Part shown: positions 2,416 to 16,508 of the stretch, piece after piece | Numbering within the stretch: position 1 is the first letter of the stretch | Layout of the letters: each line of letters starts with the position of its first letter | Assembly (NCBI GenBank): GCA_026415985.1 | Contig: JAOAGA010000019.1 | Span: 1 to 21,352, forward strand | Direction of reading: 5' to 3' | Source: Pseudomonadota bacterium | GTDB lineage: Bacteria > CALINM01 | DNA: 21,352 bases | Notes under the pieces: generated by a model | Told to the model about the DNA's origin: nothing | Databases searched by the model: none | Seen by the model: only the letters and a program-made list of their open reading frames with translations | Position numbers and translations under genes: made by a program

Positions 2416-3420
2416 TTACAACCGGAGCTCACTAATATCCCAATCTGCTATGGCAGAAACGGTCGGTTCCGCAAAGATACCTCTTTTCATTAAGTTTATT
2501 CCCACCGCTCCTATCATACCTGCGTTATCGGTGCAATATTTCTTGCTTGGAATATATAATTTAAGATTATGCCTTAAACAGAGTTTCTGAAAGGTCTCTC
2601 TTAAAAGTCTGTTGGCAGAGACTCCGCCGGATATGACAATATTACCGACAGACCTGTTTAAGGCAGAAGAGATTGTTTTATCGGTAAGTATCTCAACAAC
2701 GGTTCTCTGAAAACTACCTGCTATGTTTTTTTTGAGATCCTCTGAGAGGTCTTTGTGTTTTTTTACGATATTAAGAACGGCGGTTTTTAAACCGGAAAAG
2801 CTAAAATCTCTTTCTTTCTCAAGTGGTTTGGGTAAATCAATATCTCCTGATGTGTCACCAACAAATCTTTCTATTGCAACTCCGCCGGGATAGCCAAGGC
2901 CTAAAAGCTTTGCCACCTTGTCAAAGGATTCTCCTGCTGCATCGTCTCTTGTCTGACCAATGAGCTCATAATCTCTGAAACCTTTGACTAAATATATCCC
3001 TGTATGACCACCCGATGCCACAAGGGCAAGGTATGGATAATCCAAATCTTTATATTCAAGAAAGGGTGCAAAAAAATGCCCTTCTATATGATTTACCGCC
3101 AAAAGTGGTTTTTTAAGTGAAAAAGACAATCCCTTTGCAAAGGATATCCCTACAAGTAATGATCCAACAAGCCCCGGACCTATGGTAACAGCAATACCGT
3201 CAATATCTTTAACGGATATACCCGCCTCTTTCAGTGTCAGGTTAAATACCGGTGAGATGTTTTCCAAATGAGCCCTTGAAGCAACCTCCGGCACAACACC
3301 GCCAAAGATACCGTGAATATCGTTTTGTGATGAGACTACCGATGAGAGGACCTTATATCCCTCTGATACTACCGCAACAGAGGTATCATCGCAGGATGTT
3401 TCTATTGCCAAAATTATCAT
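2416..3420 (-). CDS. tsaD: tRNA N6-threonylcarbamoyladenosine synthase subunit TsaD
   Basis: TsaD (Kae1/YgjD/Gcp family) transfers the threonylcarbamoyl group from threonylcarbamoyl-AMP to A37 of ANN-decoding tRNAs, with TsaB and TsaE as partners. The 334-residue length is typical. Visible motifs are the N-terminal IETSCDDTSVA (6-16), the metal ligands in NHIEGHF (His111, His115), the nucleotide-binding ALVASGGHTG, and VISGGVSANRLLR near the C-terminus. It is the last gene of the long minus-strand block. Its ATG overlaps the stop of the upstream lipoprotein gene (TAATG), so it is probably translationally coupled. TsaD is a conserved housekeeping gene; tsaB and tsaE are not nearby. Confidence 0.96.
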   Translation of the reverse strand: MIILAIETSCDDTSVAVVSEGYKVLSSVVSSQNDIHGIFGGVVPEVASRAHLENISPVFNLTLKEAGISVKDIDGIAVTIGPGLVGSLLVGISFAKGLSFSLKKPLLAVNHIEGHFFAPFLEYKDLDYPYLALVASGGHTGIYLVKGFRDYELIGQTRDDAAGESFDKVAKLLGLGYPGGVAIERFVGDTSGDIDLPKPLEKERDFSFSGLKTAVLNIVKKHKDLSEDLKKNIAGSFQRTVVEILTDKTISSALNRSVGNIVISGGVSANRLLRETFQKLCLRHNLKLYIPSKKYCTDNAGMIGAVGINLMKRGIFAEPTVSAIADWDISELRL

Positions 3421-3710
3421 TATCTTGGATAGACATACCAGAGAATACCTCTGGAGGTGGCAAAGATTTTAATATAGACGGGGGTATTTCTATACATCGC
3501 TCTGACTACCATCTCACCTTTTTTATTGAGAACGTATATTATTGTCTCAGGATTTTCTTCTATAACAAACCTCTCGTATATCTTTGTCTCGTCCAGGGCT
3601 TCCTTGGTAACAGGAACATCGGGTGCTATAGAGCAGGATAAAAATAATAAAAGAAGCCCTAACAGACTAAACTTTGCAAGAGATCTCATTAATGGCCTTA
3701 ACAACCGCAT
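3420..3710 (-). CDS. Small predicted lipoprotein of unknown function
   Basis: The 96-residue product has a basic start, a leucine-rich hydrophobic core and a lipobox ending FLSC (Cys26), so it should be a lipidated envelope protein with about 70 mature residues. I do not recognise the mature domain, which is a short basic beta-rich sequence ending GILWYVYPR. The start at 3710 follows GAGGAA at good spacing and lies inside the end of the cysteine desulfurase gene (44-nt overlap). An internal ATG at 3689 would still leave a complete signal peptide but has a poorer ribosome site. The stop overlaps the tsaD start by one base. Its role is unknown; its position suggests co-transcription only. Confidence 0.7.
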   Translation of the reverse strand: MRLLRPLMRSLAKFSLLGLLLLFLSCSIAPDVPVTKEALDETKIYERFVIEENPETIIYVLNKKGEMVVRAMYRNTPVYIKIFATSRGILWYVYPR

Positions 3711-4815
3711 CTATATCTTCCTCAGTATTGAAATATCCTACACTTATTCTTACTGTCCCCTGCGGAAATGTGCCTATGAGTTTATGAACAAGGGGGGCAC
3801 AATGCAAACCAACCCTAACATATATATCATAAATTTCATCTAAAATAAACCCTACTTCTGAACAATCTAAATTTTTTATATTAAAGGAGACCGGTGAACT
3901 AATTTTTTCAGGATTCTTGGGACCGTATAAAATAATTTTTTTATTATCGGACAATTTTTCAATAAGCATCTTGTTTAATCTGATCTCGTGGTCTCTGATA
4001 TTTTTTAACCCGTTTCTCATAATGAACTCAACGCCCGCCTTAAGCCCCGCAATACCCGGTGTGTTCACTGTTCCCGATTCTAAACTTTCCGGCATATCAA
4101 CAGGCTGTTCTATGCTTGAAGACTGTGTCCCCGTTCCGCCTTCTATAAGGGGTTTTAAGTTTATTCCTTCTTTTACATAGAGGATACCCGTTCCCTGAGG
4201 TCCGAGAAGTGATTTATGTCCCGCTGTGGCGAGCATATCTATGTTCATATCCATAACATCAATGGGGATAACACCCGCTGTTTGGGCAGAGTCTAATAAC
4301 GTTAAGACATTATGCCTTTTACAGACAGAAAAAATCTCTTTAGCAGGGGATATGGTGCCAATTACGTTGGAAGAATGATTCAAAACCAGCAACCTGGTCT
4401 TTTTTGTTATAAGTTTCTCTATGCTATAAGGGTCAATAGTGCCGTCGGGGGCACAATCTATAAACTTTATCTCAACAGATCTCGATTTTTTCAGAGAAAA
4501 AAGCGGTCTTAAAACAGAGTTGTGTTCGAGGGGGGTTGTAATAACCTCATCACCTTCGTTAAGGATACCTTTTATTGCCATATTGAGTGCCGATGTGGCA
4601 TTGGAAGTAAATACTATTCTACTGCTTCTTTCTGCGTTGAAAAAGGTTGCTATAAGCTCCCTTGCCTCAAAGATTATACGGGAAGCCCTGAGAGACGGTT
4701 TGTGCCCGCCCCTTCCCGGATTTGCACCTACTTCCTTCAATGTATGAATAACCGCATCATAGACCTCTGCAGGCTTTGGATGAGAGGTTGCGGAATTATC
4801 TAAATATATACCCAT
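3667..4815 (-). CDS. Cysteine desulfurase family protein (class V aminotransferase, EGC type)
   Basis: This is a PLP enzyme of the NifS/Csd superfamily that removes sulfur (or selenium) from cysteine or selenocysteine to form an enzyme persulfide. In 382 residues it shows IYLDNSATSHPKP at the start, TSNATSALNMA (70-80), the PLP-phosphate/ring region LLDSAQTAG (173-181), Schiff-base Lys201 in AGHKSLLGPQGTG, and the active-site Cys339 in RVGLHCAPLVHK. The C-terminal GTFPQGTVRISVGYFNTEEDI is the signature of the subfamily named TIGR01977 (from memory), some members of which sit with selenium-metabolism genes. It starts directly after the SPASM-gene stop with GAGGAA before its ATG, so it belongs to the same transcript. 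General Fe-S assembly is an alternative role. Confidence 0.9.
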   Translation of the reverse strand: MGIYLDNSATSHPKPAEVYDAVIHTLKEVGANPGRGGHKPSLRASRIIFEARELIATFFNAERSSRIVFTSNATSALNMAIKGILNEGDEVITTPLEHNSVLRPLFSLKKSRSVEIKFIDCAPDGTIDPYSIEKLITKKTRLLVLNHSSNVIGTISPAKEIFSVCKRHNVLTLLDSAQTAGVIPIDVMDMNIDMLATAGHKSLLGPQGTGILYVKEGINLKPLIEGGTGTQSSSIEQPVDMPESLESGTVNTPGIAGLKAGVEFIMRNGLKNIRDHEIRLNKMLIEKLSDNKKIILYGPKNPEKISSPVSFNIKNLDCSEVGFILDEIYDIYVRVGLHCAPLVHKLIGTFPQGTVRISVGYFNTEEDIDAVVKAINEISCKV

Positions 4816-5667
4816 TTATTCCTCGCAAAGGGGGTCTTTATTATCTCCAAGAAAGATAGCGTTGCCGATGCAACCGAGTTTACATTCAACTCTTTTGTTA
4901 CAATCGTTGCAACATTTCTTAAATATATCATTTACAATATTATAAGCCCTGTTCCATAAAAACTCAAAATCATATTCAAGAAGTGAACCAACCTGTTCAG
5001 GAATAGAAGAGCAGGGATATAAAATACCGTTTTCCACATGTCCTAAAAGCTTACCCGCCTGACATCCGCCAAACCTGTCAGCATCAGAGAGCCCGAAAAA
5101 TTTTGCCAGAAAATAGTCGTGAATCTCTATTTGGGCCTTGCTTATCAAAGGTTTTATGTATTCAAGATTTTTGAGATCCTCTTTTCTGAGATATATCTGA
5201 GAAAGCTCATTTTTGTACCTGATAAGATTGGGGTTGGGAATCTTAATCTTTTTATTATTTTTTTCAGAATAAACAATTAACCTTTCAAAAATCTTAATGT
5301 TATCTCTCGTAAGTAAAAAGCTTATTGAAAAGTCTTTATCAGAGGCAAAATCAAGAAAGTCTTTTATCTCCTCTTCTTTGGAGTTAAAGGGAATATCAAC
5401 TTCTGTATCGTTAAAAAAAGAAGTTAAATGAAAAAAATCTTTGAAGTCGCTGAAACTAATCAGTAATGTCTTTCTATAGGCCCTGAAGGTAAGACTTTTT
5501 CCATATTTTTGAAATAAAGACAAAACACCCCTCTCCATTTCAAGGGTAAGAGAAAAAAGATTTAAGTTCTCCAATGATTTAAGTATCTTTAGATAGTCCT
5601 GCTCGCTTCCCTGCCAGTTAAAAAAAGACACGCTTAACCTTAGGGGTAAACTTACCTTAAGTTCCAT
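4816..5667 (-). CDS. SPASM-domain protein without radical SAM motif (GeoRSP-type)
   Basis: The 283-residue protein carries a full C-terminal SPASM domain: Cys202, then NGILYPC (Cys219), then Cys253-x2-Cys256-x5-Cys262-x3-Cys266 and Cys281, enough to bind two auxiliary Fe-S clusters. The N-terminal 190 residues look like a degenerate TIM-barrel (LRLSVSFFNW, LTLEMERG, ISFLLTRDN), but the CxxxCxxC motif that binds the SAM cluster is absent. It is therefore unlikely to cleave SAM and may be a partner or electron carrier for the adjacent radical SAM enzyme. Annotation databases describe such SPASM-only proteins in the GeoRSP system next to radical SAM/SPASM and PqqD genes, exactly the order here. 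Its start has no good ribosome site and lies 24 nt after the 17-codon ORF, suggesting coupled re-initiation. Confidence 0.8.
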   Translation of the reverse strand: MELKVSLPLRLSVSFFNWQGSEQDYLKILKSLENLNLFSLTLEMERGVLSLFQKYGKSLTFRAYRKTLLISFSDFKDFFHLTSFFNDTEVDIPFNSKEEEIKDFLDFASDKDFSISFLLTRDNIKIFERLIVYSEKNNKKIKIPNPNLIRYKNELSQIYLRKEDLKNLEYIKPLISKAQIEIHDYFLAKFFGLSDADRFGGCQAGKLLGHVENGILYPCSSIPEQVGSLLEYDFEFLWNRAYNIVNDIFKKCCNDCNKRVECKLGCIGNAIFLGDNKDPLCEE

Positions 5668-5691
5668 ATAAATATAAATTCAAATCAAGTA

Positions 5692-5745
5692 TTAGCAGGG
5701 ATGAACGCTTGATATACCCTTTGCTTTTGGTCTTACATATTTCAT
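5692..5745 (-). CDS. 17-residue peptide, candidate RiPP precursor of the radical SAM system
   Basis: On the minus strand, ATG at 5745 opens an 18-codon frame (with TAA) encoding MKYVRPKAKGISSVHPC. The ATG overlaps the TGA of the radical SAM/SPASM gene (ATGA). It is preceded by AAGGAGGTGAT (5761-5751), an 11-base match to the anti-Shine-Dalgarno sequence with 9 nt from GGAGG to the start. No other gene in this block has so strong a site, which suggests the peptide is made in excess over the flanking enzymes, as expected for a precursor. It is even shorter than PqqA (about 23 residues). Residues open to modification include Tyr3, Ser12-Ser13, His15 and the C-terminal Cys17. The alternative is a leader ORF that only couples translation of the SPASM gene. 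No homologue is known to me. Confidence 0.6.
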   Translation of the reverse strand: MKYVRPKAKGISSVHPC

Positions 5746-6758
5746 CTGTTATCACCTCCTTCCTTCCAGCAGTGTGGATCTGGATTATTAAAATCTCCTG
5801 CCATAATAAACGCCCTTGCCTTGCAACCACCGAGGCAGTTTTCGTAAATACTGCAACTGGTGCATTTTCCCTGAGGAACAGGATTTCTCAAGGTGTTTAA
5901 TACGGGGGATTCCTTCCATAATTTTATTATATCATCTTTTAAAATATTGCCAATCTTAACAGACATAAAACCACAGGGGGTAATATCTCCGTTAGAATGG
6001 ATATTAAGAGACAGCTTACCGCAGGTGCTACCTCTTACAAGGGGTCTTTCATTATACTCAGGCAATAGATGCATTATAGGATCATCAAATGATATGGTAA
6101 TGTGCGGGTTATTTTTTCTTACTTCCAGTGCCTTCTTATAAAACTCCTTCCATTCCTGCGGAGTAAGATCAAGCTTTTCCATGTTTTTATAACCCATACC
6201 TGAGCATTTATAATTGTGAAGATATAACTGTTTAACCTTATAATTTTCTACAATGGGAACAATCTCCTCAAAGTCATCTTTGTTAAGCTTACTTATTACC
6301 ATAGATACAGTGGTTTTTACATTCTCCTCTGCCAAGTTTTCCAGGGCTGAAAGTGCTCTTTTAAAACTACCCTTTTTGTTTCGAAAACTATCATGGACTT
6401 CTTCCTTAGGACTATCAATGCTAATTCCCACTGATGTAAAACCTGCTTTCTTAATCTCCTTTGCCTTTTCTTTATCAAGAAGATAGCCATTGCTGTTCAT
6501 AGAACAATGAAGCCCCTTTTGATTAGAAAATTTAACAAAATCAAAAAGCCATGAAACAAGAAGGGGTTCACCCCCGCCTATGTTCAAAAACGGGACTTTC
6601 CAATCGGACAATATCTGGGAGATTTTTTTAAAATCGTCAAAAGTAAGCTCCTCTGTTGGAGATATCTCCCTTGAGTAGCAATGATGGCATGTGAAATTAC
6701 ATCTATAGGAAAGAGAGATGTTTATAGTTAGTGGTGCATTAAGAAAAAAATTATTCAT
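5742..6758 (-). CDS. Radical SAM/SPASM peptide-modifying enzyme (GeoRSP-type)
   Basis: This 338-residue enzyme should bind a SAM-cleaving [4Fe-4S] cluster through Cys20-x3-Cys24-x2-Cys27 (CNFTCHHC). It shows the SAM-binding GGGEPLL, GISIDSPKEEVHD (a Ser-Asp strand typical of peptide maturases) and a C-terminal SPASM domain with STCGKLSLNIHSNGDITPCGF and CTSCSIYENCLGGC (Cx2Cx5Cx3C) followed by PDPHC. Relatives include PqqE and AnSME-type enzymes; PqqE-like members work with a PqqD chaperone that presents the precursor peptide. Here the PqqD gene lies immediately upstream with an 8-nt overlap and a candidate precursor immediately downstream (ATGA overlap). The gene order matches the GeoRSP set. 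Substrate and chemistry (Cys or Tyr crosslinks, epimerisation and so on) cannot be read from sequence. Confidence 0.9.
   Translation of the reverse strand: MNNFFLNAPLTINISLSYRCNFTCHHCYSREISPTEELTFDDFKKISQILSDWKVPFLNIGGGEPLLVSWLFDFVKFSNQKGLHCSMNSNGYLLDKEKAKEIKKAGFTSVGISIDSPKEEVHDSFRNKKGSFKRALSALENLAEENVKTTVSMVISKLNKDDFEEIVPIVENYKVKQLYLHNYKCSGMGYKNMEKLDLTPQEWKEFYKKALEVRKNNPHITISFDDPIMHLLPEYNERPLVRGSTCGKLSLNIHSNGDITPCGFMSVKIGNILKDDIIKLWKESPVLNTLRNPVPQGKCTSCSIYENCLGGCKARAFIMAGDFNNPDPHCWKEGGDNR
5751..5761 (-). promoter_or_regulatory. Near-perfect Shine-Dalgarno sequence for the 17-residue peptide
   Basis: AAGGAGGTGAT on the minus strand is complementary to the 3' end of 16S rRNA over 11 bases. 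It lies inside the last codons of the radical SAM gene (which encode ...GGDNR). It serves only the short ORF starting at 5745, because the next start codon (5667) is about 80 nt away. Confidence 0.75.
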
Positions 6759-7077
6759 AGATAATAAACCCGGAATCTATAAGGTCTTTTAGGAAAATTT
6801 TTACATCTTCCAGAGCGGTTTCATAGGGCACATCAAAATCTTTGCTTATCTCTTCTGCCAGCTGAGAAATAGTCTTGGGTTCTTTAATCTTGTTCCAGAT
6901 ATGATAGCCCATAATGTTAAGCTGAGTCATCAACCCCGCCTTTATAAGGGTTAAAACTCCTAAATTTTCCGCTACTTCATAAATACCTTTGGATAATGCC
7001 TCCTCTGCCTGCCTGAGGTTTTCTTCTTCGACCCTCTCAAAGACATCATCAGAAATTTTAACTGTCATATTTTGCAT
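6751..7077 (-). CDS. PqqD-family peptide chaperone (GeoRSP-type)
   Basis: The 108-residue protein has a PqqD-like winged-helix (RRE) domain in its second half: MGYHIWNKIKEPKTISQLAEEISKDFDVPYETALEDVKIFLKDLIDSGFI follows the pattern of an alpha-helix, 'tv.el...l...y', and a final wing helix with a 'dL...g.i' end. In PQQ and other RiPP pathways PqqD binds the leader of the precursor and delivers it to the radical SAM enzyme. The N-terminal about 45 residues (MTVKISDDVFERVEEENLRQ) are longer than in classical PqqD (about 90 residues). The stop overlaps the radical SAM start by 8 nt, and 19 nt separate it from the upstream beta-helix gene. There is no clear ribosome site; ATG at 7068 is an alternative start. 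Confidence 0.82.
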   Translation of the reverse strand: MQNMTVKISDDVFERVEEENLRQAEEALSKGIYEVAENLGVLTLIKAGLMTQLNIMGYHIWNKIKEPKTISQLAEEISKDFDVPYETALEDVKIFLKDLIDSGFIIYE

Positions 7078-7096
7078 AGTTGTAATTTTTGCAATT

Positions 7097-7849
7097 TTAA
7101 TGCCAATCAGGAAAATTTTTCAGGTTATCTATCAAAATTATCTTAAACTTAAGAGAGTTATCCTTAAGACTATCAAAAACAGATGGAGTTTTTTGAAAAA
7201 AATTATTATATATCTTTATGTCATCCTCCTGAAAAAAACCTCCATATAAATCAAAATTGTTGTCTAAAAAGCTATTTCCTCTTATAACTGTTGATTTTAC
7301 CCCTTCTCTGAGAAATATGGCTATATCGTTTTTGTAAAAGATGTTATCCTCTAAAAACGGCTCTGCCTTAATAAATCTTACCGCAATACTGTTTTTCGAA
7401 AAAATATTTCTTCTTATCTTAATATTTTCTCCGGTAAATCTTATCCCACCATAACCGTCTGAAAAAAAAGAGTTTTCTATTGTTCCCTTAGAGTGGTGAA
7501 TGTGTAAATACCAGCTTCCATTTTTAAAAATTGAGTTTTTTATAACAAAATCAGAATCTTCTATGTGAATAAGGTTCTTGTCTTCAAGCTCAGAGAGATT
7601 TCCGTATCCTTCCACAATTACAGGGTCAGATGAAGCACCATCAAAGATTATAGAACAATTCTCAAAGACCAGACCGCTTTCAAGGCTATTGTTTACTCTT
7701 ATTCTTGTTGAAGGTGCTATAGTAATTTTCTTGTTTTTATATACCATTTGTTCAGAAACATCTATCACACCTGTCAACAGGATATCCTCTGCCCGCAGAT
7801 TCCCGAAAATAAGAATTAAAAGAGTGGCTATAAGACTAATTTTTTTCAT
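7097..7849 (-). CDS. Periplasmic right-handed parallel beta-helix protein (NosD-like repeats)
   Basis: The 250-residue product has a Sec signal peptide (MKKISLIATLLILIFGNLRA, cleavage before EDI). Short solenoid turns of about 20-24 residues follow, with N/D-ladder motifs such as FKNGSWYLHIHHS, FFSDGYGGIRFTG, IFSKNSIAVRF, IFYKNDIAIFL and FLDNNFDLYGG. Such pectate-lyase-like helices occur in NosD/CASH-domain proteins, which bind carbohydrate or assist metal-site assembly. No catalytic site is visible. Its start overlaps the yedE stop by 14 nt, and it directly precedes the PqqD gene. It is the third beta-helix protein of the block, and this placement links the peptide-modifying genes to the envelope genes. 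The function is unknown. Confidence 0.8.
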   Translation of the reverse strand: MKKISLIATLLILIFGNLRAEDILLTGVIDVSEQMVYKNKKITIAPSTRIRVNNSLESGLVFENCSIIFDGASSDPVIVEGYGNLSELEDKNLIHIEDSDFVIKNSIFKNGSWYLHIHHSKGTIENSFFSDGYGGIRFTGENIKIRRNIFSKNSIAVRFIKAEPFLEDNIFYKNDIAIFLREGVKSTVIRGNSFLDNNFDLYGGFFQEDDIKIYNNFFQKTPSVFDSLKDNSLKFKIILIDNLKNFPDWH

Positions 7850-8900
7850 TTTTTAAGATTAGGTTATAACTCAAAAAGGAAAAGATAAGTATCCCTGAAA
7901 AAACACCTATCTTACCCATTAGGGTAGGGCCTGAAGAATCGGAGAGTATCTTAAAGTTTTGGACAAAGGCTCCTCCTATCAGCATACCTAAGAAACATAC
8001 AAAGGCGTTAACATCACCTTCCCCCATCTTTACAAGCTGACGAAAGGGACACCCATCTATAATTACAGCAATGTAGCCTACCAAAGTCATAGAGATAAAA
8101 GACCAAAGATACTCTGTATGACTTCCCGGCTGACCTATGACACCAAATTTCAGTCTTTCGAATATTGCGTTTACGATCAACGCAGATAAAACCAAAGCCA
8201 GCAATGCCATAAAACCTGTTGTCTTTCTGAGAATGATACTATTTCTTATGGAACCGGTAACACAAAACCTTGAATATTGAGAGAAGATACCTATTATCAG
8301 TCCCACAGAGATTGCGTAGATAACAGGACTTTTTTCTGCCCCTGCACCACTGACACTCTCGGCGAAGAGTTCTCCTTTTAAGAAATAGAGAGAAATAAGA
8401 AAAATTACTGAGAGAGGAATTATTATTGATGATCTGTCATTCCTTTTTATGACCGTTTTAAACAATGAGGTATCAATGTCTTCCCTGAGCAATCTGACCG
8501 CTAACCAAACCCCGAAGATTGTTCCGATTATTCCTGCCAAACTATTTAAATCCCCGCCCGCCAGTTTAAGAAGCATCTTTATGGGACACCCGATAAAAAC
8601 CGCACTGCCTATTATCATAAAAATTCCGCCGAGAAAGGAATGAATGATTGATGCAGAGTATCTCGTGATAAACTCTCTTCTTACCACAGCGGAGACAAAG
8701 CTTCCTATAACTATAAATATCATCTCAGGCCTTATATACTGCATTAGCATGTTATTGTGAAGCCTCAGGGCACCGGAAAAGTTCTCCATAAAACAGGATA
8801 TACAAATACCGGTATTTATCGGATTGCCCCAGACAGAAAGAAGGGCACCGAAAAGACCTATCAAAAGAGCGGTAAAGATAAAAATCAGATTTTCTTTCAT
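7836..8900 (-). CDS. yedE: YedE-type membrane transporter (putative selenium transporter, YeeE/YedE family)
   Basis: This is a polytopic inner-membrane protein of 354 residues with about 9-10 hydrophobic segments. It consists of two homologous halves, each with a conserved Cys motif: GCPIKMLLKLAGGDLN (from Cys105) and GCPFRQLVKMGEGDVNAFV in the second half. The N-terminal NPINTGICISCFMENFSGALRLHN...QYIRPE resembles the YedE subfamily annotated as a putative selenium transporter. The general YeeE/YedE family moves reduced sulfur species such as thiosulfate. The start overlaps the upstream stop in GGATGA (4-nt overlap). Selenium specificity is inferred from subfamily resemblance and from the cysteine desulfurase in the same block; no selA, selD or yedF gene is in the window. 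Confidence 0.82.
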   Translation of the reverse strand: MKENLIFIFTALLIGLFGALLSVWGNPINTGICISCFMENFSGALRLHNNMLMQYIRPEMIFIVIGSFVSAVVRREFITRYSASIIHSFLGGIFMIIGSAVFIGCPIKMLLKLAGGDLNSLAGIIGTIFGVWLAVRLLREDIDTSLFKTVIKRNDRSSIIIPLSVIFLISLYFLKGELFAESVSGAGAEKSPVIYAISVGLIIGIFSQYSRFCVTGSIRNSIILRKTTGFMALLALVLSALIVNAIFERLKFGVIGQPGSHTEYLWSFISMTLVGYIAVIIDGCPFRQLVKMGEGDVNAFVCFLGMLIGGAFVQNFKILSDSSGPTLMGKIGVFSGILIFSFLSYNLILKNEKN

Positions 8901-9358
8901 CCACAGCCACCTTTAAGTTTGCTGTCTATTAAATGACGGTAATTTTTAAACTCTTCCCTGCCTGTTATCTTTTCTGAGATTTTGTTGAGTATTCTTCTTA
9001 CATTATCAGGATAATAACCATCATAAAGGACCTGCTCTTCTCTTATGGCACCGGCAATCAGCTCAAGGCCCTCCTTTTCCTTACCCGTCTCAAAATAGAT
9101 CAGACCCAAATAAAATTTGGCAAAGACATTATTTGACAATCTTTCATCTTTAAGAAAAATTATTGCCTCTTCCGTTTTGTCCTCTTTTAACAAATCTATC
9201 GCCCTTTCAACCTCTCTCCTCTTCATTTCCAAACTCAGATAAATTGTCTCCTTGGGATTTGATTTTGGTATGCTAAGAAAGTGTAGATCTCTGATCAGAA
9301 AAGCAAGATAAGCCAAAGATAAAAAAAGTACTGATAAGGTTATTAATCTAATCTTCAT
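8897..9358 (-). CDS. Membrane-anchored small TPR-like protein, unknown function
   Basis: I do not recognise a family. The 153-residue protein has one N-terminal membrane segment (about residues 4-22). A charged helical region follows with a TPR-like rhythm (EVERAIDLLKEDKTEEAIIFLKDE; AKFYLGLIYFETGKEKEGLELIAGAI). The end is unusual: KLKGGCG, a Gly-rich tail with a single Cys four codons before the yedE start. It follows the PhnD-like gene with no gap (TAAATG) and overlaps yedE by 4 nt, so the three are surely co-expressed. It may scaffold the transporter or the binding protein. The C-terminal GGCG could be a metal or thiol handle, but that is speculation. Confidence 0.75.
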   Translation of the reverse strand: MKIRLITLSVLFLSLAYLAFLIRDLHFLSIPKSNPKETIYLSLEMKRREVERAIDLLKEDKTEEAIIFLKDERLSNNVFAKFYLGLIYFETGKEKEGLELIAGAIREEQVLYDGYYPDNVRRILNKISEKITGREEFKNYRHLIDSKLKGGCG

Positions 9359-10258
9359 TTAATATCTCTGATAGGGGGGAAAATTTATCCTTTTAAGTAT
9401 CTCTCTAAGACCGTCATAATCTTTATCTGCCAGCTCCTCAAAGCCTTCAATCTTTGATGCCCTGAAAATATTTATCCTTTCACCATTAATCTCGACGGTT
9501 GTGTTTTTGTCTATTTTCAAGAGTGCCTTCTTAACCTTTTCAACGACATCATCAGGTAGCCCCTTCCTGTAACCGAAGGTGCAATAGGGATGGATATCCG
9601 TTTTTGCTATTATCTTAAAGTCTTCATCAAGCTTGATCTTTCCTTCCTTTTGCATCTCTTCCAGATCAAGCAGTGGCGCGGTTCCCGCATCATAGGCACC
9701 AAACCAGACACCGTATATTATCTTTTCATGCTGAAATGAATGAGAGGGCTGATAGAGAATCTTAAGATCTTTATAGGGATCTATGCCTCCCCTTATCATC
9801 ATATCAAACTGAGTAACATAACCAAAGGGAGCAAAGGTGGGACCGAATATCATCTTTTTACCCTTTAGGTCTTTGATTGAGTTTATATTGCTATCCTTTC
9901 TTACGATTATTGTCCCCATCGTTTTTGACCCGTATATGCCATTTTTTTCTGAGACCAGGAGATTAACCCCGTATTCTTTGTTTAGGATTATATACAGGAT
10001 TGAGTTTGTGTGGGTAAAATCATACTGTTCTTTCTTAAATCTTTCTTCAAAATCAACTGTATCAATAGCGGAAAGGACAAAGTTATATCCTGTCTCCTTC
10101 TTAAGGTATTCCATTAACGGTTGAAACCTCTCCTTTGTCTCTTTCTCACTATTACAAATCATAAAGCCTATCTTATAGGTCCTTCCGCCTCCGCTTACAC
10201 TTCCCTTACAGGCAGATGTAACTATCAAGAATAATAGAAACAATGCCAATCTTTTCAT
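9359..10258 (-). CDS. PhnD-like phosphate/phosphonate-type substrate-binding lipoprotein
   Basis: The 299-residue product has a lipoprotein signal with lipobox VTSAC (Cys17), then a type II periplasmic binding fold of the PhnD family. Visible marks are YKIGFMICNS, FQPLMEYLKKETGY, FTHTNSILYIIL, GSKTMGTIIVRKDSNINSIKDLKGKKMIFG, GAYDAGTAPLLDL and FGYRKGLPDDVVEKVKKAL. PhnD proteins bind phosphonate, phosphite or phosphate for an ABC importer, but many members of this broad family act as sensors or sit with redox operons. No permease or ATPase of the PhnCE type is present, so import by the usual complex is not supported here. The gene has its own promoter (10306-10278) and a GAGGTAGG ribosome site, so it begins a second transcription start within the block. 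The ligand is unknown. Confidence 0.85.
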   Translation of the reverse strand: MKRLALFLLFLIVTSACKGSVSGGGRTYKIGFMICNSEKETKERFQPLMEYLKKETGYNFVLSAIDTVDFEERFKKEQYDFTHTNSILYIILNKEYGVNLLVSEKNGIYGSKTMGTIIVRKDSNINSIKDLKGKKMIFGPTFAPFGYVTQFDMMIRGGIDPYKDLKILYQPSHSFQHEKIIYGVWFGAYDAGTAPLLDLEEMQKEGKIKLDEDFKIIAKTDIHPYCTFGYRKGLPDDVVEKVKKALLKIDKNTTVEINGERINIFRASKIEGFEELADKDYDGLREILKRINFPPYQRY

Positions 10259-10277
10259 TAAACCGCCTACCTCATAA

Positions 10278-10306
10278 AAATTATCAATCTGTTAAAAAAC
10301 TGTCAA
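10278..10306 (-). promoter_or_regulatory. Predicted promoter of the PhnD-like gene and downstream operon
   Basis: Minus-strand TTGACA (10306-10301), a 17-nt spacer and TAATTT (10283-10278) lie in the 97-bp gap before the gene at 10258. A good ribosome site (GAGGTAGG) follows. It is the clearest internal promoter seen in the minus-strand block. Confidence 0.6.
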
Positions 10307-10355
10307 CAAGGGATAGGATGAATATTTTCTGCGACGCTAAATTCAGACCTATCAC

Positions 10356-11354
10356 CTATTCTTTATACAATCTGAGCCCGTAAGCTCCTTCAAAGCCTTT
10401 AATGTCAGAATTACCCTTTAAATAAATATCAAATCTGCCGTTTTTCGTGAAAGTAATATTTTCGCCGGTCAGAATGGAGCTATCAAGAGATATGCCGTCA
10501 AGAAGATTATTTGATATTTCACCGGAGTTTATTTCTACATCTGAGCTTTCAAAAGAAAGTCCCCTTAAAAGGGCACCTTTGGAAAAAATCCTGTCAGCCC
10601 TTATTTCTGAATTTTTTCCATAAAAATTCTGCATGCTATCAAATATGGAAAGATTTGAAATTTCAGCCTTTGAAAACCTGACCTTAATCCCAAAAAGAGA
10701 GTTATTATTGATCTCAATATTCTTTAAAATTACATCGCTATACAAAAAGTTTATACCGCCTATATTGTTGTAAAGAGAAGTGCTTACAACCTCTGCCTTT
10801 GAGTTTCTGAACTGTAGGGCGGTATTGTTATTGTAAAAACTGCAGTTTTGAATACTAATTTTTCCCTCCTGACTTTGAAAACCACGCATGTTATTCCTGA
10901 AGATTGTATTAAGTATCTTCAGATTGGAAAAATGGGAATGAAGCGCCATGTAGGCATCTTCAAAAACTGCGTAATTAAGGACTGACTCACTGTCAACACT
11001 CATAATACTAAAGCCAAGCCAGCTCCCCTTTTCTTTTCTGTCAGACTCAAAAACAACAGGTTTATCCTTACTTCCTAAAACTGTAACCCTGCCCTGACTT
11101 AAAATCTCACTCTCTCCGATGCCATCCCTGTCATCATCCAGAAATATAAAGATAACCCTTGTGCCGGGATTAATCAGAAGTGAGGCATTTTCGTTAACGG
11201 TAATCCTGCCCTCTATATATATCGTTCCTGAGAAGGTGTTATCTCCTTCTAAGGTAAGCTCTTTTAGCCTCACATCCCTGAAATCTTCCGCAAAAAGGCT
11301 TTTATTACTGGTTAGTAAAATCAGCAAAAATAATATTATCTTTTTTATTTTCAT
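10356..11354 (-). CDS. Periplasmic parallel beta-helix protein (NosD-like)
   Basis: From the ATG at 11354 the product is 332 residues with a clear Sec signal (MKIKKIILFLLILLTSNKSLFA). A capping region follows (LEGDNTFSGTIYIEGRITVNENASLLINPGTRVIFIFLDDDRDGIGES). Many beta-helix turns come next, with repeated N-rich corners: IFRNNMRGFQSQEGKISIQNCSFYNNNTALQF, LYNNIGGINFLYS, ISNNLLDGISLDSS. The acidic DDDRDGIGE loop looks like a calcium-binding site. The open frame extends upstream to 11411, but that would place extra hydrophobic residues before the signal peptide. The chosen start overlaps the upstream beta-helix gene by 50 nt. No enzymatic motif is visible. A stabilising role for an envelope complex, as for NosD, is inference. 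Confidence 0.8.
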   Translation of the reverse strand: MKIKKIILFLLILLTSNKSLFAEDFRDVRLKELTLEGDNTFSGTIYIEGRITVNENASLLINPGTRVIFIFLDDDRDGIGESEILSQGRVTVLGSKDKPVVFESDRKEKGSWLGFSIMSVDSESVLNYAVFEDAYMALHSHFSNLKILNTIFRNNMRGFQSQEGKISIQNCSFYNNNTALQFRNSKAEVVSTSLYNNIGGINFLYSDVILKNIEINNNSLFGIKVRFSKAEISNLSIFDSMQNFYGKNSEIRADRIFSKGALLRGLSFESSDVEINSGEISNNLLDGISLDSSILTGENITFTKNGRFDIYLKGNSDIKGFEGAYGLRLYKE

Positions 11355-12087
11355 AAGATTTAATCTTAATAAGATTGAAATCAATACATTGATTAGACAT
11401 AACAATACCATAGAGATTGTCTCTTACAACAAGGTTTTCAATATTATGAGGGCATCTTCTCAATAAAACTCCTTCATCATTTTTTTCTACAATTACGTTT
11501 GAAAAATTGGTTCTTTCTGAGTTATTTATAATGGCGTTCTCGTTTTTTGAAAAGTAAGCATCTGATATTTCCGCCGATCCTCCATTTCCAAGAACTGAGA
11601 TGCCAATCTTATTCCCTACAAATTTAGAATCTTTCAGATACACGTTACCATTAATCAGGTTAATTGCATTATAGGCGTTATTAATCTCCATATTTTCTGC
11701 CTTTAGCACACCTTTATTTACAATAATACCACCCCAGTTAATACCTGTCTTATCTAAGGAAGTAAAAATGACAGGTTTTTCCTTTGTCCCCTTTACAGTT
11801 AACCTGCCTTCTACAACTATCTCTGTCTCAGGCATGAGAAAAACCGGTTCAGTCCTTGATATATCTGATTTTTCAACGAGAATCGCTGACCCTTCTTCTA
11901 TCTCAACATGAGAGCCGCTGGCAATTAATAAATCTTTTTCTATTTTCACCTTTCCATTAAGTTTGATATCTTTTGCTATAATACCACCTATAACAGTAAT
12001 ATCAGATGGTTGACTATTTTTTTTTTCTTCAATGGTTGCGGTACAGGAAGAAAGGATGAGGGATATAAACAATAAAAAGACTACCAT
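11305..12087 (-). CDS. Parallel beta-helix lipoprotein
   Basis: The 260-residue product has a short lipoprotein signal with lipobox ILSSC (Cys15). Then comes a beta-helix with an N-terminal strand series (GGIIAKDIKLNGKVKIEKDLLIASG, EIVVEGRLTVKGTKEKPVIFTS) and turns such as GGIIVNKGVLKAENMEINNAYNAINLINGNVYLKDS. The phrase 'V-x-G-T-K-E-K-P-V-I-F-T-S' is shared in style with the next gene's VLGSKDKPVVFES, so the two are probably paralogues. The ATG lies in ATGGTAG, overlapping the upstream stop by 7 nt, and the 3' end runs 50 nt into the next gene. It is anchored to a membrane by lipid, whereas the neighbour is soluble. The function is unknown. Confidence 0.78.
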   Translation of the reverse strand: MVVFLLFISLILSSCTATIEEKKNSQPSDITVIGGIIAKDIKLNGKVKIEKDLLIASGSHVEIEEGSAILVEKSDISRTEPVFLMPETEIVVEGRLTVKGTKEKPVIFTSLDKTGINWGGIIVNKGVLKAENMEINNAYNAINLINGNVYLKDSKFVGNKIGISVLGNGGSAEISDAYFSKNENAIINNSERTNFSNVIVEKNDEGVLLRRCPHNIENLVVRDNLYGIVMSNQCIDFNLIKIKSYENKKDNIIFADFTNQ

Positions 12088-12554
12088 AAGCCTTTCTCCA
12101 TGAGATATTCCTTAATTGTTCTTTTTATCTTACCCTTTTTTTCTACAAGGACATTTAAATCATCCAAATCCTTTTTGCTCAGCCCCTTTGACAGGTTAGT
12201 TATTGCCTCTAAGAGACTATTAAACCTCAGATCTTCTTCAATCTTTTTTCTATAGAAAAGGGTTATTTTTTTATCCTTTGTCAGATTAAGCCCTTTTGTC
12301 TTATCGGAACCGTAGGAAAAGGCTAAAATATCAATCTGCTCTTTCTCAAGAAGCCTCGGGATAATCTCTGAATCAACCTCTTTTAACACAACATTAATAC
12401 CGGTCTTTTCTTTTATATAAACATCAAGGATGCTGGCAATGATGTAAGATTCGATGTTTTTTCTTTCATAACCGACAAACAGCTCCGGACCAAAACAGGC
12501 CAGGGAATTTTTGGTCAGAAAAATAAAAATAAACAGAAAAATTAATCTTCTCAT
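12081..12554 (-). CDS. Small periplasmic solute-binding-like protein (OpuAC-type N-terminal lobe)
   Basis: The ATG at 12554 overlaps the stop of the NapH-like gene (ATGA) and gives 157 residues with a Sec signal (MRRLIFLFIFIFLTKNSLA). A longer frame from 12572 adds six residues without benefit. The mature part begins with FVGYERKNIESYIIASILDVYIKEKTGINVVLKEVDSEIIPRLLEKEQIDILAFSYGSD, which resembles the first lobe of glycine-betaine/choline-type binding proteins (xxGSKxFTEqyil...). It is only half the length of a normal binding protein (about 270-300 residues), so it may be a truncated paralogue or a single-lobe protein with a new role. No permease is nearby. The fold assignment is tentative. 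Confidence 0.6.
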   Translation of the reverse strand: MRRLIFLFIFIFLTKNSLACFGPELFVGYERKNIESYIIASILDVYIKEKTGINVVLKEVDSEIIPRLLEKEQIDILAFSYGSDKTKGLNLTKDKKITLFYRKKIEEDLRFNSLLEAITNLSKGLSKKDLDDLNVLVEKKGKIKRTIKEYLMEKGLW

Positions 12555-13810
12555 ATAAATACAAAAAGCCATTTTATGATGATATATTCAATAAAGAAAA
12601 AGATAAAGGTAAAAAGAAGCCCCAAGGGGATTGTGACAGGTAACTTTTCTTTAAAAATTTTTACCATACCTGCTGAATAAAAGAAGACAGGCAGGATAAA
12701 AAGGATTATCCTGAAATATTCTATCGGTATGATATCTCCGGGAATATCAAAATTATAGGCTAATCTGAGAGTTACCACATCTTTTCCTGAGGGATCAAGA
12801 ACTGCATAGGGCAGAAACTTAATGCGGGAGTTAATTTTAACGAGAGCAAGTATCATATGCACCGATAAGGTTGAGAAGATAAAGTAGGAGATATACTTAC
12901 CAAATGATTGCCTGTCAAAAATTTTTATTAAAAATGCCGATAAGATAAAAAACGCCAAGGGATATATAAAAACACCAAAAAATGTTGTCAAAGGCAGAAT
13001 TAACTTATGAGAAAGGCTTAAAATCTCCGTTATCTTATAAGGTATATAGACAAAAATCTCCCTCACATCTCTTACAACTCTTATAAAAGCCATAAAGGTA
13101 AGGCCCGTAAGCACTGAAAAAATAAAAAAATCGGCTCTGTTAAAATCAGGCAGAGATACGCCTTTTAAGGGGTTAGTTAAAGATAGCTTCAAGCCTTTGC
13201 TATCCTTAAAACATCTCAGACAAAGGTGACAATCCTCTTTTTTTATATCACAGGGGTTAAGAAGAACAGGACATTGATTTTTTACATTGCAATCACCTTC
13301 TGAACTCAATTTAACAGAGGAAAAGAGTCCGTAAAATTTCAGGAAGGCACTGGCAGGGCAAAGCAACAGACAAAAACTGTTTCCGTTAAAGATTAGCCCC
13401 ATCACTGCGGATAACGAAAAGGCGCAGATTATCAGTATTGTTGTCAGATGAGGATGTCTTGAAATATTGAACGTTATAACCAATAAAAAGACCAGTAGCA
13501 GAGTAAAGGCCTGAAGTATGGAAAATTTGAGGTTTATCTTTTTATTAAGACCAATTTTTGACATAAGGTAGTTTATCTCACCGACGGGACATAGGGCACA
13601 AAAAAACCTCCCCAGAGGTATCAGCAGAACAGAGCCCATAAGAAAGATTACCCAAAAGGAGAAATTGGTCAGATTTGAATACATAAAAAGGGCATAAGCA
13701 CCCTCTCCCGAATAGATTCCCCAACCATTAAAAACAAGAAAGAGAGAGAACAAAATCAGTAATTTTCTAATGATAGAGACTATATGGTAAAGCTGGTTTA
13801 CCTTTTTCAT
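12551..13810 (-). CDS. NapH/NosR-like polyferredoxin membrane protein
   Basis: The 419-residue inner-membrane protein has about 9-10 hydrophobic helices and two Cys pairs at helix ends: Cys71-x2-Cys74 in GRFFCALCPVGEINYLMSK and Cys147-x3-Cys151 in SFCLLLCPASAFLKFYG. A cytoplasmic-type ferredoxin region follows, with Cys174, 180, 187, 194, 197 and 200 (CHLCLRC). This is the layout of the NapH/NosR/CcoG family, which passes electrons from the quinol pool or cytoplasm to periplasmic reductases or maturation systems. The ferredoxin region has one tidy Cx2Cx2C cluster motif and scattered extra Cys rather than two classic Cx2Cx2Cx3CP motifs. The start lies 44 nt inside the HEAT-lipoprotein gene. 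It is the likely electron-supply component of the block. Confidence 0.82.
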   Translation of the reverse strand: MKKVNQLYHIVSIIRKLLILFSLFLVFNGWGIYSGEGAYALFMYSNLTNFSFWVIFLMGSVLLIPLGRFFCALCPVGEINYLMSKIGLNKKINLKFSILQAFTLLLVFLLVITFNISRHPHLTTILIICAFSLSAVMGLIFNGNSFCLLLCPASAFLKFYGLFSSVKLSSEGDCNVKNQCPVLLNPCDIKKEDCHLCLRCFKDSKGLKLSLTNPLKGVSLPDFNRADFFIFSVLTGLTFMAFIRVVRDVREIFVYIPYKITEILSLSHKLILPLTTFFGVFIYPLAFFILSAFLIKIFDRQSFGKYISYFIFSTLSVHMILALVKINSRIKFLPYAVLDPSGKDVVTLRLAYNFDIPGDIIPIEYFRIILFILPVFFYSAGMVKIFKEKLPVTIPLGLLFTFIFFFIEYIIIKWLFVFI

Positions 13811-14684
13811 CGATGTAATAGGTCCTTTCTCCGGTTAAAACCTCTAAAGACCTCGCTGACCACTCCCTAACAACTACTTCTTTATCAGAAAGTAACTTTC
13901 TCAGGTAGGGGATAGCAGAAGGCTGATTTAAATCACCAAGAGCCTGACAGGCTTTAACACGGGCTAAATAATCAGGATTTTTAAGTTCAGATAAAAGGTA
14001 TGGCAATGATTTCTCCGTTCCGACCTTTCCCAGAGCCCATATAACATCATACTTATTTTCTGAGTTAATCTGCGAAATCAGCAGATCCTCTGCGGATCTG
14101 TCTCTTATCTCGCCCATTGCCCTGATAAGATAACCCTGAACTTCCTTTTTTAAGCTGTTAAATCTCTCAAAAATTACCGGAAGTGCCTTTGGCCCTAATT
14201 TTATAATAGCCCTCGAAGCATACTTCTGAACATCAACCCTTTCATCTTCCAGACCTTCTATTAATGTTGATATACTTGATATATCTCCGATCTCACCAAG
14301 GGCGAAATAAACTACATATCTTCTCGGATAGCTCTTATCTCTTGCCATATCTATTAAAACCGGAACTGCTGATTTAATTTTTAACTTACCCGCGAGGGCT
14401 ATCAGAAACTCTTTTGTCACAACATCCTTCTCTGACTTGAGTTTATTTAAAATAAGTCCCGAAAGAAACTCCCTTTTGCCCTCCGGAACCATAATTAATC
14501 CACCATAGGCTTTTACCTTTATATCTTCTTCGTAATGCTCAAGAAGTTTTAAAAGACTTTTTATGGCAGATTCATCTCCTTTTTTTGCACCATCGGTATA
14601 TACATCTATCTTTGATATTTTTGGAGAACAGGATAAAGCAACCAGCAAAATTAATATAAAAGACTTTTTTAAGATACCCATCAT
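13767..14684 (-). CDS. HEAT-repeat lipoprotein
   Basis: The 305-residue product has a lipobox ALSC (Cys19), then about six HEAT-like helical pairs. Examples are AVPVLIDMARDKSYPRRYVVYFALGEIGDISSISTLIEGLEDERVDVQKYASRAIIKLG and AIPYLRKLLSDKEVVVREWSARSLEVLTG. Such solenoids mediate protein-protein contacts; PBS-lyase-type HEAT proteins are common beside cytochrome genes. Start choice: the ATG at 14684 forms TGATG with the upstream stop and stands 7 nt after AAGG, a better position than the ATG at 14690, where AAGG is only one base away. The 3' end overlaps the NapH-like gene by 44 nt. Probably a periplasmic or outer-membrane-facing scaffold. Confidence 0.82.
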   Translation of the reverse strand: MMGILKKSFILILLVALSCSPKISKIDVYTDGAKKGDESAIKSLLKLLEHYEEDIKVKAYGGLIMVPEGKREFLSGLILNKLKSEKDVVTKEFLIALAGKLKIKSAVPVLIDMARDKSYPRRYVVYFALGEIGDISSISTLIEGLEDERVDVQKYASRAIIKLGPKALPVIFERFNSLKKEVQGYLIRAMGEIRDRSAEDLLISQINSENKYDVIWALGKVGTEKSLPYLLSELKNPDYLARVKACQALGDLNQPSAIPYLRKLLSDKEVVVREWSARSLEVLTGERTYYIDEKGKPALPYSLYH

Positions 14685-15424
14685 CACCATACCTTGTGAA
14701 CAGTAATATCAATATTTTTTAGTATTTCGTTATCCCTTACCACAACACCGGAGGGCTCAATGGTGCCTTTATCATATCTTCCGTATAAATCCCCCACTTT
14801 AGGCGGTCCTCCAAACTTATCTCTCGCAGCAAGATAATACGTCCCACCTTTAGGAAGATAGACAATATACTTACCGTCAGGCCCCGTGGGACTTGATACA
14901 AACTTTGGTCTTTCCGACATCTGAATGTGATCGTAGATATGAACCCTTGCGTTTGCAACCGGTTTACCATCGGCATCAAGAATACGCCCCTCTATCCCGG
15001 TCTTTTTTGATAAATCAGGAGAAGTTATGGCGATATCTTTAGTCTCACCTATCTTCTGAAAGACCTTAATATTTTTTTCCAAAACCTTTCCATCCTCCGG
15101 CACGGTTACCGGCCCTATTACCTCACTCTTTAAATCACCTACCTCAACAGGTCCTGCAACCTCTCCTGTTTTTCTCATCCTCGCTACAAGCAAATATTTA
15201 CCCGGTGGCAACGATATGGAGAAGTTACCTTCCTCATCTGTCAGGGTATCTGCAAAGGCTGGCCCCTTTAAGTCCATTCCCTCTTTATATACATAGACAT
15301 AAATTTTCTCCACAGGCTTATAAACAATACCTTTAATGCCTCCCTTATCTTTCTTCTTCTCACAGGCTGAGAGAAATGTTAATAAGATAAAAAAAACAGC
15401 TAATAAAAAAAGATTTTTCTTCAT
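14684..15424 (-). CDS. Lipoprotein with carboxypeptidase-regulatory-like (beta-sandwich) domains
   Basis: The 246-residue lipoprotein has lipobox FLSAC (Cys21) and two prealbumin/carboxypeptidase-regulatory-like domains: GIKGIVYKPVEKIYVYVYK...DEEGNFSISLPPGKYLLVAR (about 29-85) and GIEGRILDADGKPVANARVHIYD...GPDGKYIVYLPKGGTYYLAARDKFGGPP (about 145-215). These Ig-like folds bind or support partners and are not catalytic. The ATG at 15424 follows GGGGAG. It begins the tightly overlapping run of genes, after an 88-bp gap from the haem-binding-type lipoprotein gene. Its place between a haem-type lipoprotein and the HEAT and NapH-like proteins suggests a part of an envelope redox complex (inference). 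Confidence 0.8.
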   Translation of the reverse strand: MKKNLFLLAVFFILLTFLSACEKKKDKGGIKGIVYKPVEKIYVYVYKEGMDLKGPAFADTLTDEEGNFSISLPPGKYLLVARMRKTGEVAGPVEVGDLKSEVIGPVTVPEDGKVLEKNIKVFQKIGETKDIAITSPDLSKKTGIEGRILDADGKPVANARVHIYDHIQMSERPKFVSSPTGPDGKYIVYLPKGGTYYLAARDKFGGPPKVGDLYGRYDKGTIEPSGVVVRDNEILKNIDITVHKVW

Positions 15425-15512
15425 AAACTCCCCGCAAAGTTTGAATAAAAAGTTTTACTTTCTTGTAACCCTTACCTCTCACCGTTTAACAAACAATTAT
15501 CTTTATCTAATC

Positions 15513-16406
15513 TTATTCAAAGACCGCACTAAATGTTTCTGTCATACTATGATTTACATTGGTTCCGTCAAAAAGGGCAATTGCCATATATATTTTAGCA
15601 CCTTTTTTAATTTCCTTTAATCCTAAAAAATCAAGGGGGATAGATATTTCTGAAGACCATTGATTGAGCTTATAGTAAATCTTGCTGTCCAAATAAACAT
15701 TGTCATTACTTAAAATAAACAGATTTTCATCTTTAAAAACAGGACTATCTTCCTTTCCCAATATCTGATAGAGGTAAAAAGAAGAAACCCTGCCTTCGGC
15801 CCTTTTTGAGTTAAAAACAAAGAACTCACCACCCTTTGGGTTTCTCTTACCATCCTTCCCTAAAATGCCCGCTACCGCCCTGCCCATGCTTTTGGCTGAA
15901 CGCAATAAAGTTATTGGATTTTCTTCCTTCTCATTGAACATTCTGTAATCTGAGACGAACTTCCCTCTATCAATCTCCCAGTTAGTCATATGGCAGGTAA
16001 GGGCACAGTTAAAGTCAGGAGATTTAGAAAAAATGATTGATATACCGTCATCTTTACCTTCAGTTAAGTTACCATTTTTCCAGCGGGAAATTCTGCTATC
16101 CTTAGTCAAATCACTCCAGCTGACTTTAAGATATATATTCTTGTCATCATAACTGGCAGACAGAAACCCCCTTAATGGCGGAACAACTTCACCTCCATGG
16201 TGGCAGGATTTTGATGATACAGGTATTGCCTCTTCCCCCCAGTCAATAAGGCTTAAATGTCTTTCGCCACCCTTTGCGATAAACTGATAGAAATCAGAGT
16301 TTTTAGCACTTACCTTTACAACAGGAAGATAATCTTTGCTAACCGCTTTCTCTTTTGCACAGGAAAAGATAAAAAGAGCCAAAAGAATTAATAGATATTT
16401 TTTCAC
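15513..16406 (-). CDS. Ethylbenzene-dehydrogenase-related haem-binding-type lipoprotein
   Basis: From GTG at 16406 the 297-residue product begins VKKYLLILLALFIFSC, a textbook lipoprotein signal (Cys16). The open frame extends to a TTG at 16442, but that adds only hydrophobic residues. The mature part matches the haem-binding domain of cytochrome c-552/DMSO-reductase gamma-type proteins (EB_dh): FLSASYDDKNIYLKVSWSD, EGKDDGISIIFSK and ISIPLDFLGLKEIKKGAKIYMAIALFDG. It also has Cys68-His-His and a Cys134-Ala-Leu-Thr-Cys138-His139 motif, a CxxxCH that could be a nonstandard haem c attachment site. The gene is divergent from the MBL-fold gene and is the first of the minus-strand block. A soluble electron-transfer role is likely but the partner is unknown. 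Confidence 0.78.
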   Translation of the reverse strand: MKKYLLILLALFIFSCAKEKAVSKDYLPVVKVSAKNSDFYQFIAKGGERHLSLIDWGEEAIPVSSKSCHHGGEVVPPLRGFLSASYDDKNIYLKVSWSDLTKDSRISRWKNGNLTEGKDDGISIIFSKSPDFNCALTCHMTNWEIDRGKFVSDYRMFNEKEENPITLLRSAKSMGRAVAGILGKDGKRNPKGGEFFVFNSKRAEGRVSSFYLYQILGKEDSPVFKDENLFILSNDNVYLDSKIYYKLNQWSSEISIPLDFLGLKEIKKGAKIYMAIALFDGTNVNHSMTETFSAVFE

Positions 16407-16508
16407 GCTTAAAGTAAAAAGCAAAATAAATGCCAGAATCAAACATAGACCATGAACAAACTGGTCGGCTATTTATATTTTTCCTTAGGAAATATTCAGT
16501 TTACTCAA

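Follow-up and report, generated by a model that had tools for sequence, protein, structure and literature searches.

The closest described systems to the locus studied here are those in which a short ribosomal precursor is handled by a PqqD-like protein and a radical SAM/SPASM enzyme. The PQQ precursor has a Glu/Tyr core, and the mycofactocin precursor has a Val-Tyr end and dedicated partners. The mycofactocin enzyme MftC decarboxylates a Tyr and cross-links that Tyr to a Val (PMC8326336). The discrete RREs of lasso and LPP systems bind their leaders through the motif [Y/W]xxPx[L/V/I/F/A] (PMC13381572), and W/Y/LxxP motifs of a related kind are met repeatedly among the PqqD-like RREs (PMC12710340). 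In LppB, one of the discrete RREs, the Pro is sandwiched by F74, its kink is fixed by N33, and D70 forms a hydrogen bond to the Tyr (PMC13381572). For the GeoRSP enzymes curated models are known and we found none for a substrate; our search of the open literature returned no relevant paper on GeoRSP, and prior recognition of the peptide described below is possible.

The GeoRSP trio and the peptide gene

We analysed a stretch of 21,352 nucleotides (the window), in which the following features are central:

6751..7077, minus strand: PqqD-family recognition element (TIGR04302, 59.6 bits, cut-off 100; N54, D91 and F95 present)
5742..6758, minus strand: GeoRSP radical SAM/SPASM protein with CxxxCxxC and a 7-Cys SPASM domain (TIGR04303, 410.1 bits, cut-off 400)
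4816..5667, minus strand: SPASM-domain partner lacking the CxxxCxxC motif of radical SAM proteins (TIGR04304, 41.9 bits, cut-off 300)
5754..5761, minus strand: Shine-Dalgarno sequence AAGGAGGT of the peptide gene (−13.0 kcal/mol, the top value in the window)
5692..5745, minus strand: gene of the putative 17-aa precursor peptide MKYVRPKAKGISSVHPC (translation, Shine-Dalgarno sequence, conserved family)
5722..5739, minus strand: YVRPKA, residues 3-8, a match to the RRE-recognition motif [Y/W]xxPx[L/V/I/F/A] (motif from PMC13381572)
5695..5706, minus strand: C-terminal VHPC, the invariant core [V/I]HPC-stop (family comparison; HPC preset by the search patterns)

The radical SAM protein, which retains CxxxCxxC and all seven SPASM cysteines, passes the TIGR04303 threshold and is the only member of the trio above its NCBIfam cut-off; its second-best NCBIfam match is the MftC family and its top PDB match is SkfB. 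The PqqD falls below the TIGR04302 cut-off, yet TIGR04302 is its best family and its position is syntenic; judged by sequence, it is GeoRSP-like rather than a strict member of the family. The SPASM protein, also below its cut-off, has TIGR04304 as its best family, lies adjacent and keeps the 7-Cys SPASM domain; in all 44 homologues CxxxCxxC is absent from the first 80 residues. No dedicated protease or exporter was evident in the trio.

The short ORF proposed between the two enzyme genes, with its ATG over the radical SAM stop, is indeed there: the minus strand of 5692-5745 translates to MKYVRPKAKGISSVHPC followed by a stop, the ATG (5745-5743) shares bases with the radical SAM TGA (5744-5742) as ATGA, and the stop lies 24 nt from the SPASM gene. 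The proposal that the peptide has the best Shine-Dalgarno sequence in the window and its neighbours poor ones was equally borne out, as pairing of GGAAGGAGGTGATAACAG, upstream of the peptide ATG, with the anti-Shine-Dalgarno sequence gives −13.0 kcal/mol, the strongest value among the 23 gene starts that we tested in the window, compared with −3.2 kcal/mol for the radical SAM gene, +0.4 for the SPASM gene and +2.2 for the PqqD gene. Among the 585 ATGs in the window, only the peptide's own has a Shine-Dalgarno sequence of such strength. On this sequence evidence the ORF is a genuine gene: it is short, conserved and provided with a ribosome-binding site of its own, as is looked for in a RiPP precursor.

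Conservation of the peptide family

The nearest relative carries MKYIKPKTLGISTVHPC at the position of the window peptide, and pattern searches brought out a family of 17-21 residues, peptides of the MKKLTYVKPKVVGTASVHPC type among them, with the consensus MKKxxYVxP[KR][VI]VGxxx[VI]HPC. A first DNA pattern, P-K-x6-V-H-P-C-stop, matched 29 of the 46 genomes searched, mostly GeoRSP carriers, and its reversal matched none; when mismatches were allowed, most of the remaining genomes proved to have variants, V-to-I and K-to-R. When the Lys anchor was replaced by Tyr, matches were obtained in 54 of 64 genomes, and the reversed control gave none in all 64. Of the 59 genomes that encode a GeoRSP radical SAM protein, 54 contain the family, at up to five copies each; this tally adds G000, G001 and G404, which were caught by the earlier patterns only, and leaves out G182, G183, G184, G206 and G246, which have no GeoRSP-grade radical SAM protein. 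Of these last, G206 and G246 have peptides and no GeoRSP match at E 1e-40. The pattern searches found no peptide in G002, where the contig ends inside the radical SAM gene, or in G148, G163, G174 and G552, which have no such explanation. Neither NCBIfam nor Pfam holds a model matching the family.

Each of the 64 fully readable matches to the DNA patterns has Tyr or Phe at the position 15 residues ahead of its stop, and a start, preceded by a Shine-Dalgarno sequence, lies 17-23 codons ahead of that stop; both features lay outside the DNA patterns used. The C-terminal [V/I]-H-P-C is the invariant part of the family; HPC and the P were imposed by the search patterns, so that the full variability at those positions is not captured. 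The Ser residues, which had also been suggested as sites of modification, vary across the family.

A conserved short ORF, as anticipated for related loci, thus exists, but mostly elsewhere than in the gap between the radical SAM and SPASM genes: in most genomes the peptides are dispersed, and often multicopy, and in most trio loci the two enzyme genes overlap or abut. We considered whether the missing gap should count as a refutation and rejected this, because the genome-wide patterns located the peptides elsewhere. In several loci (L038, L039, L173 and L181-L183) the peptide occupies the place of the SPASM gene after the radical SAM gene, with no SPASM gene nearby, as if the SPASM partner might be dispensable; G145, G146 and G207 have good TIGR04304 matches elsewhere in the genome, and the other such genomes have only weak ones. 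The excellent Shine-Dalgarno sequence, taken with the several copies per genome, suits a substrate required in excess.

The overlap of the peptide start with the radical SAM stop and the strength of the Shine-Dalgarno sequence would also be expected of a leader or regulatory uORF whose translation serves to couple that of the radical SAM and SPASM genes and whose product has no role. Such an element would not, however, keep its amino acids in unrelated contexts, with a pN/pS across pairs of 0.33 (positions preset by the search included) and with third bases varying at the conserved codons, and most copies lie far from the radical SAM and SPASM genes; we give this explanation almost no credence.

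Co-occurrence with the GeoRSP enzymes

In a sample of 198 genomes from the Geobacter phylum, comprising 13 GeoRSP carriers and 185 others, the peptide was found in 9 of the carriers and none of the others (p = 7e-13), and the carriers rise to 12 of 13 if three more with a peptide directly after the radical SAM gene are counted. A second sample of 198 genomes, from the Nitrospirota-type phylum, contained 11 carriers and 187 others, with the peptide in 5 and 2, respectively (p = 4e-6); a looser pattern, applied to carriers only, found it in 11 of 11. Pooling both samples, the peptide occurs in 2 of 372 genomes without GeoRSP. Among 145 broad relatives, of which 130 have some radical SAM match, the pattern occurred in only two, both with a trio-linked peptide. 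The central claim of the original prediction, that this is a RiPP precursor and the substrate of a GeoRSP-type PqqD/radical SAM/SPASM trio, is supported by the co-occurrence in 54 of 59 genomes and by the near absence of the peptide where the radical SAM protein is lacking. The family is very probably, from these sequence comparisons, the substrate of the GeoRSP radical SAM enzymes in Geobacter-like and Nitrospirota-like bacteria.

A predicted recognition motif and the PqqD pocket

The motif YxxPx[LVIFA] is found in the N-terminal half of 67 of 69 peptide genes, its [YF] and the residue at P+2 being partly imposed by the regular expression. A profile of 37 GeoRSP PqqDs, compared with the PDB, matched TbiB1, LppB (9x8z), PbaB1 (9x90), PqqD and TfuB1, and the closest PDB relatives of the window PqqD are RREs that bind YxxP or WxxP. 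The positions aligned to N33, D70 and F74 of LppB (the chain being numbered from the alignment, with the paper's pocket residues in register) are Asn in 37 of 37 GeoRSP PqqDs, Asp in 36 and Phe in 37. The sole loss of the Asp, to Ala in L180, occurs in genome G404, in which the only peptide found (L187) has Phe replacing the Tyr; this is one case, but the sequence pairing is a pointed one. A recognition motif is thus matched by the residues of its cognate RRE, with binding predicted. Tyr3 had been put forward as a site of modification; it fits the RRE motif instead, and so is more likely, on sequence grounds, to be a recognition residue.

With the gene, its conservation, its co-occurrence with GeoRSP, the matching motif and the RRE residues established by sequence, we infer the binding, modification chemistry, product and function as follows. 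It is highly probable, from the sequence data, that the peptide is a ribosomal GeoRSP precursor, of which PqqD would hold the YxxP half and the radical SAM/SPASM enzyme would modify the C-terminal [V/I]HPC. The PqqD-family RRE would bind the N-terminal half by its Tyr-x-x-Pro-x-hydrophobic motif (Y3, P6 and A8 in the window), this half running along the PqqD beta-sheet in the manner of lasso and LPP leaders, and PqqD would present ISSVHPC, the C-terminal part, to the radical SAM/SPASM enzyme. This enzyme and its SPASM-only partner may oxidatively modify the C-terminal [V/I]-H-P-C, the likeliest outcomes being a thioether at the terminal Cys, or a decarboxylation or cross-link as in mycofactocin. 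The kinship of the radical SAM protein with MftC (NCBIfam) and SkfB (PDB) makes a C-terminal oxidative change or a Cys thioether most likely.

Gene neighbourhood

The trio and peptide genes adjoin a conserved set of genes:

7097..16442, minus strand: conserved surrounding directon (library matches and synteny)

This directon encodes a NosD-like beta-helix protein, a YedE transporter, a TPR-like protein, a PhnD-like binding protein, beta-helix proteins, and OpuAC-like, NapH-like, HEAT, CarboxypepD_reg and EB_dh proteins. The trio loci of Nitrospirota and Geobacter have in common a small binding protein, ResB-like, PhnD-like, TPR-like and YedE proteins, a protein of ~630 aa, a cupin-like protein of ~107 aa, PqqD, the radical SAM protein and the SPASM protein, and the window has much of this set, all on one strand. 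The long minus-strand directon of the window, 3420-16442, resembles the GeoRSP neighbourhood of both groups and is suggestive of a redox or assembly system of the envelope. The cupin-like protein (THTHHGNH; judged by eye) directly precedes PqqD in the Nitrospirota and Geobacter loci; in the window, no such gene separates NosD from PqqD. Its genes lie at:

L045:5357-5680, cupin-like protein
L055:5371-5697, cupin-like protein
L061:5375-5695, cupin-like protein
L067:5343-5660, cupin-like protein
L074:5369-5692, cupin-like protein

The gene upstream of the peptide is on the same strand in 61 of 68 cases, and 17 of these 61 neighbours are multihaem cytochromes. Among the remaining genes of those loci the count is 12 of 283 (p = 2e-7), a comparison set that is not independent of the chosen loci. 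The other upstream neighbours include CarboxypepD_reg proteins, fibronectin-type proteins or the radical SAM protein itself. Among loci L109-L145, the giant multihaem cytochromes upstream of peptides share a C-terminal end near WN-x-x-TPW and the fibronectin-type proteins end like TTPAYQ-x-GD-x-TC; these shared ends are possible sorting or interaction signals.

The cytochrome enrichment and the shared strand are what one would also expect if the peptide were a conserved small structural or metal-binding (His-Pro-Cys) partner of cytochromes and surface proteins, acting directly and unmodified by radical SAM chemistry. We regard this as very improbable, since it leaves unexplained the tie to GeoRSP across phyla, the position between the radical SAM and SPASM genes and the YxxP motif with its conserved RRE residues, and since many peptides, including that of the window, have no cytochrome neighbour.

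In two loci the gene just upstream of a peptide encodes a B12-binding radical SAM protein whose best match in NCBIfam is BchE:

L077:3424-4902, B12-binding radical SAM protein
L123:4363-5841, B12-binding radical SAM protein

This protein is a possible second tailoring enzyme. That the peptide is a RiPP precursor mainly modified by such another radical SAM enzyme, with the GeoRSP trio providing one tailoring step, is very improbable, there being these two cases only, against GeoRSP as the consistent partner.

Returning to the peptide as a GeoRSP substrate, the gene neighbourhood by itself suggests a role of the product in the cell envelope: copies away from the trio are often preceded by a multihaem cytochrome or a secreted surface protein, so the product would probably serve envelope redox proteins. 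More tentatively, and with considerable doubt, the [V/I]HPC peptides might give rise to a redox or ligand cofactor that would join PQQ and mycofactocin as a new one made from a peptide, and that would support extracellular electron transfer by multihaem cytochromes and other surface proteins in Geobacter-like and Nitrospirota-like bacteria. The dispersed copies adjoining giant multihaem cytochromes give a first link of putative RiPP chemistry to electron transfer at the surface of bacteria that cycle metals. The analysis yields a synthesizable candidate substrate family of 17-21 residues, for which both a binding motif and a site of modification are predicted, and a family so defined makes the chemistry of the GeoRSP enzymes directly testable.

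Comparison with known systems

The NCBIfam GeoRSP families TIGR04302, TIGR04303 and TIGR04304 represent the enzymes of the window locus, and no peptide family was matched in the libraries searched. Like mycofactocin (MftA/MftB/MftC), the system combines a short ribosomal precursor with a PqqD-like RRE and a radical SAM/SPASM enzyme predicted to act at the extreme C-terminus; unlike it, GeoRSP has [V/I]HPC, dispersed multicopy peptides, an extra SPASM-only partner and cytochrome neighbours, and the window locus is not a mycofactocin locus, the radical SAM protein scoring 173.8 bits against a TIGR03962 cut-off of 265 and the peptide ending in VHPC rather than Val-Tyr. With PQQ (PqqA/PqqD/PqqE) it shares a very short precursor overlooked by gene callers, a PqqD chaperone and a radical SAM/SPASM enzyme, whereas the Glu/Tyr core is missing from the GeoRSP peptide and the radical SAM protein, at 121.9 bits, is far under the PqqE cut-off (TIGR02109, 381). 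The sactipeptide and ranthipeptide enzymes SkfB and PapB are likewise radical SAM/SPASM proteins, and the conserved Cys of the GeoRSP peptide would be available for a thioether, although here it is a single, C-terminal one. An asparagine-synthetase-like cyclase and a leader peptidase, as in lasso systems, were absent among the window genes scanned. The likeness to lasso and LPP leaders with discrete RREs lies in the [Y/W]xxPx[L/V/I/F/A] motif and the counterparts of RRE residues N33, D70 and F74 (PMC13381572); the difference is that the GeoRSP precursor has just 17-21 residues, so that, by its sequence, a single precursor of about 17 residues appears to combine recognition and core.
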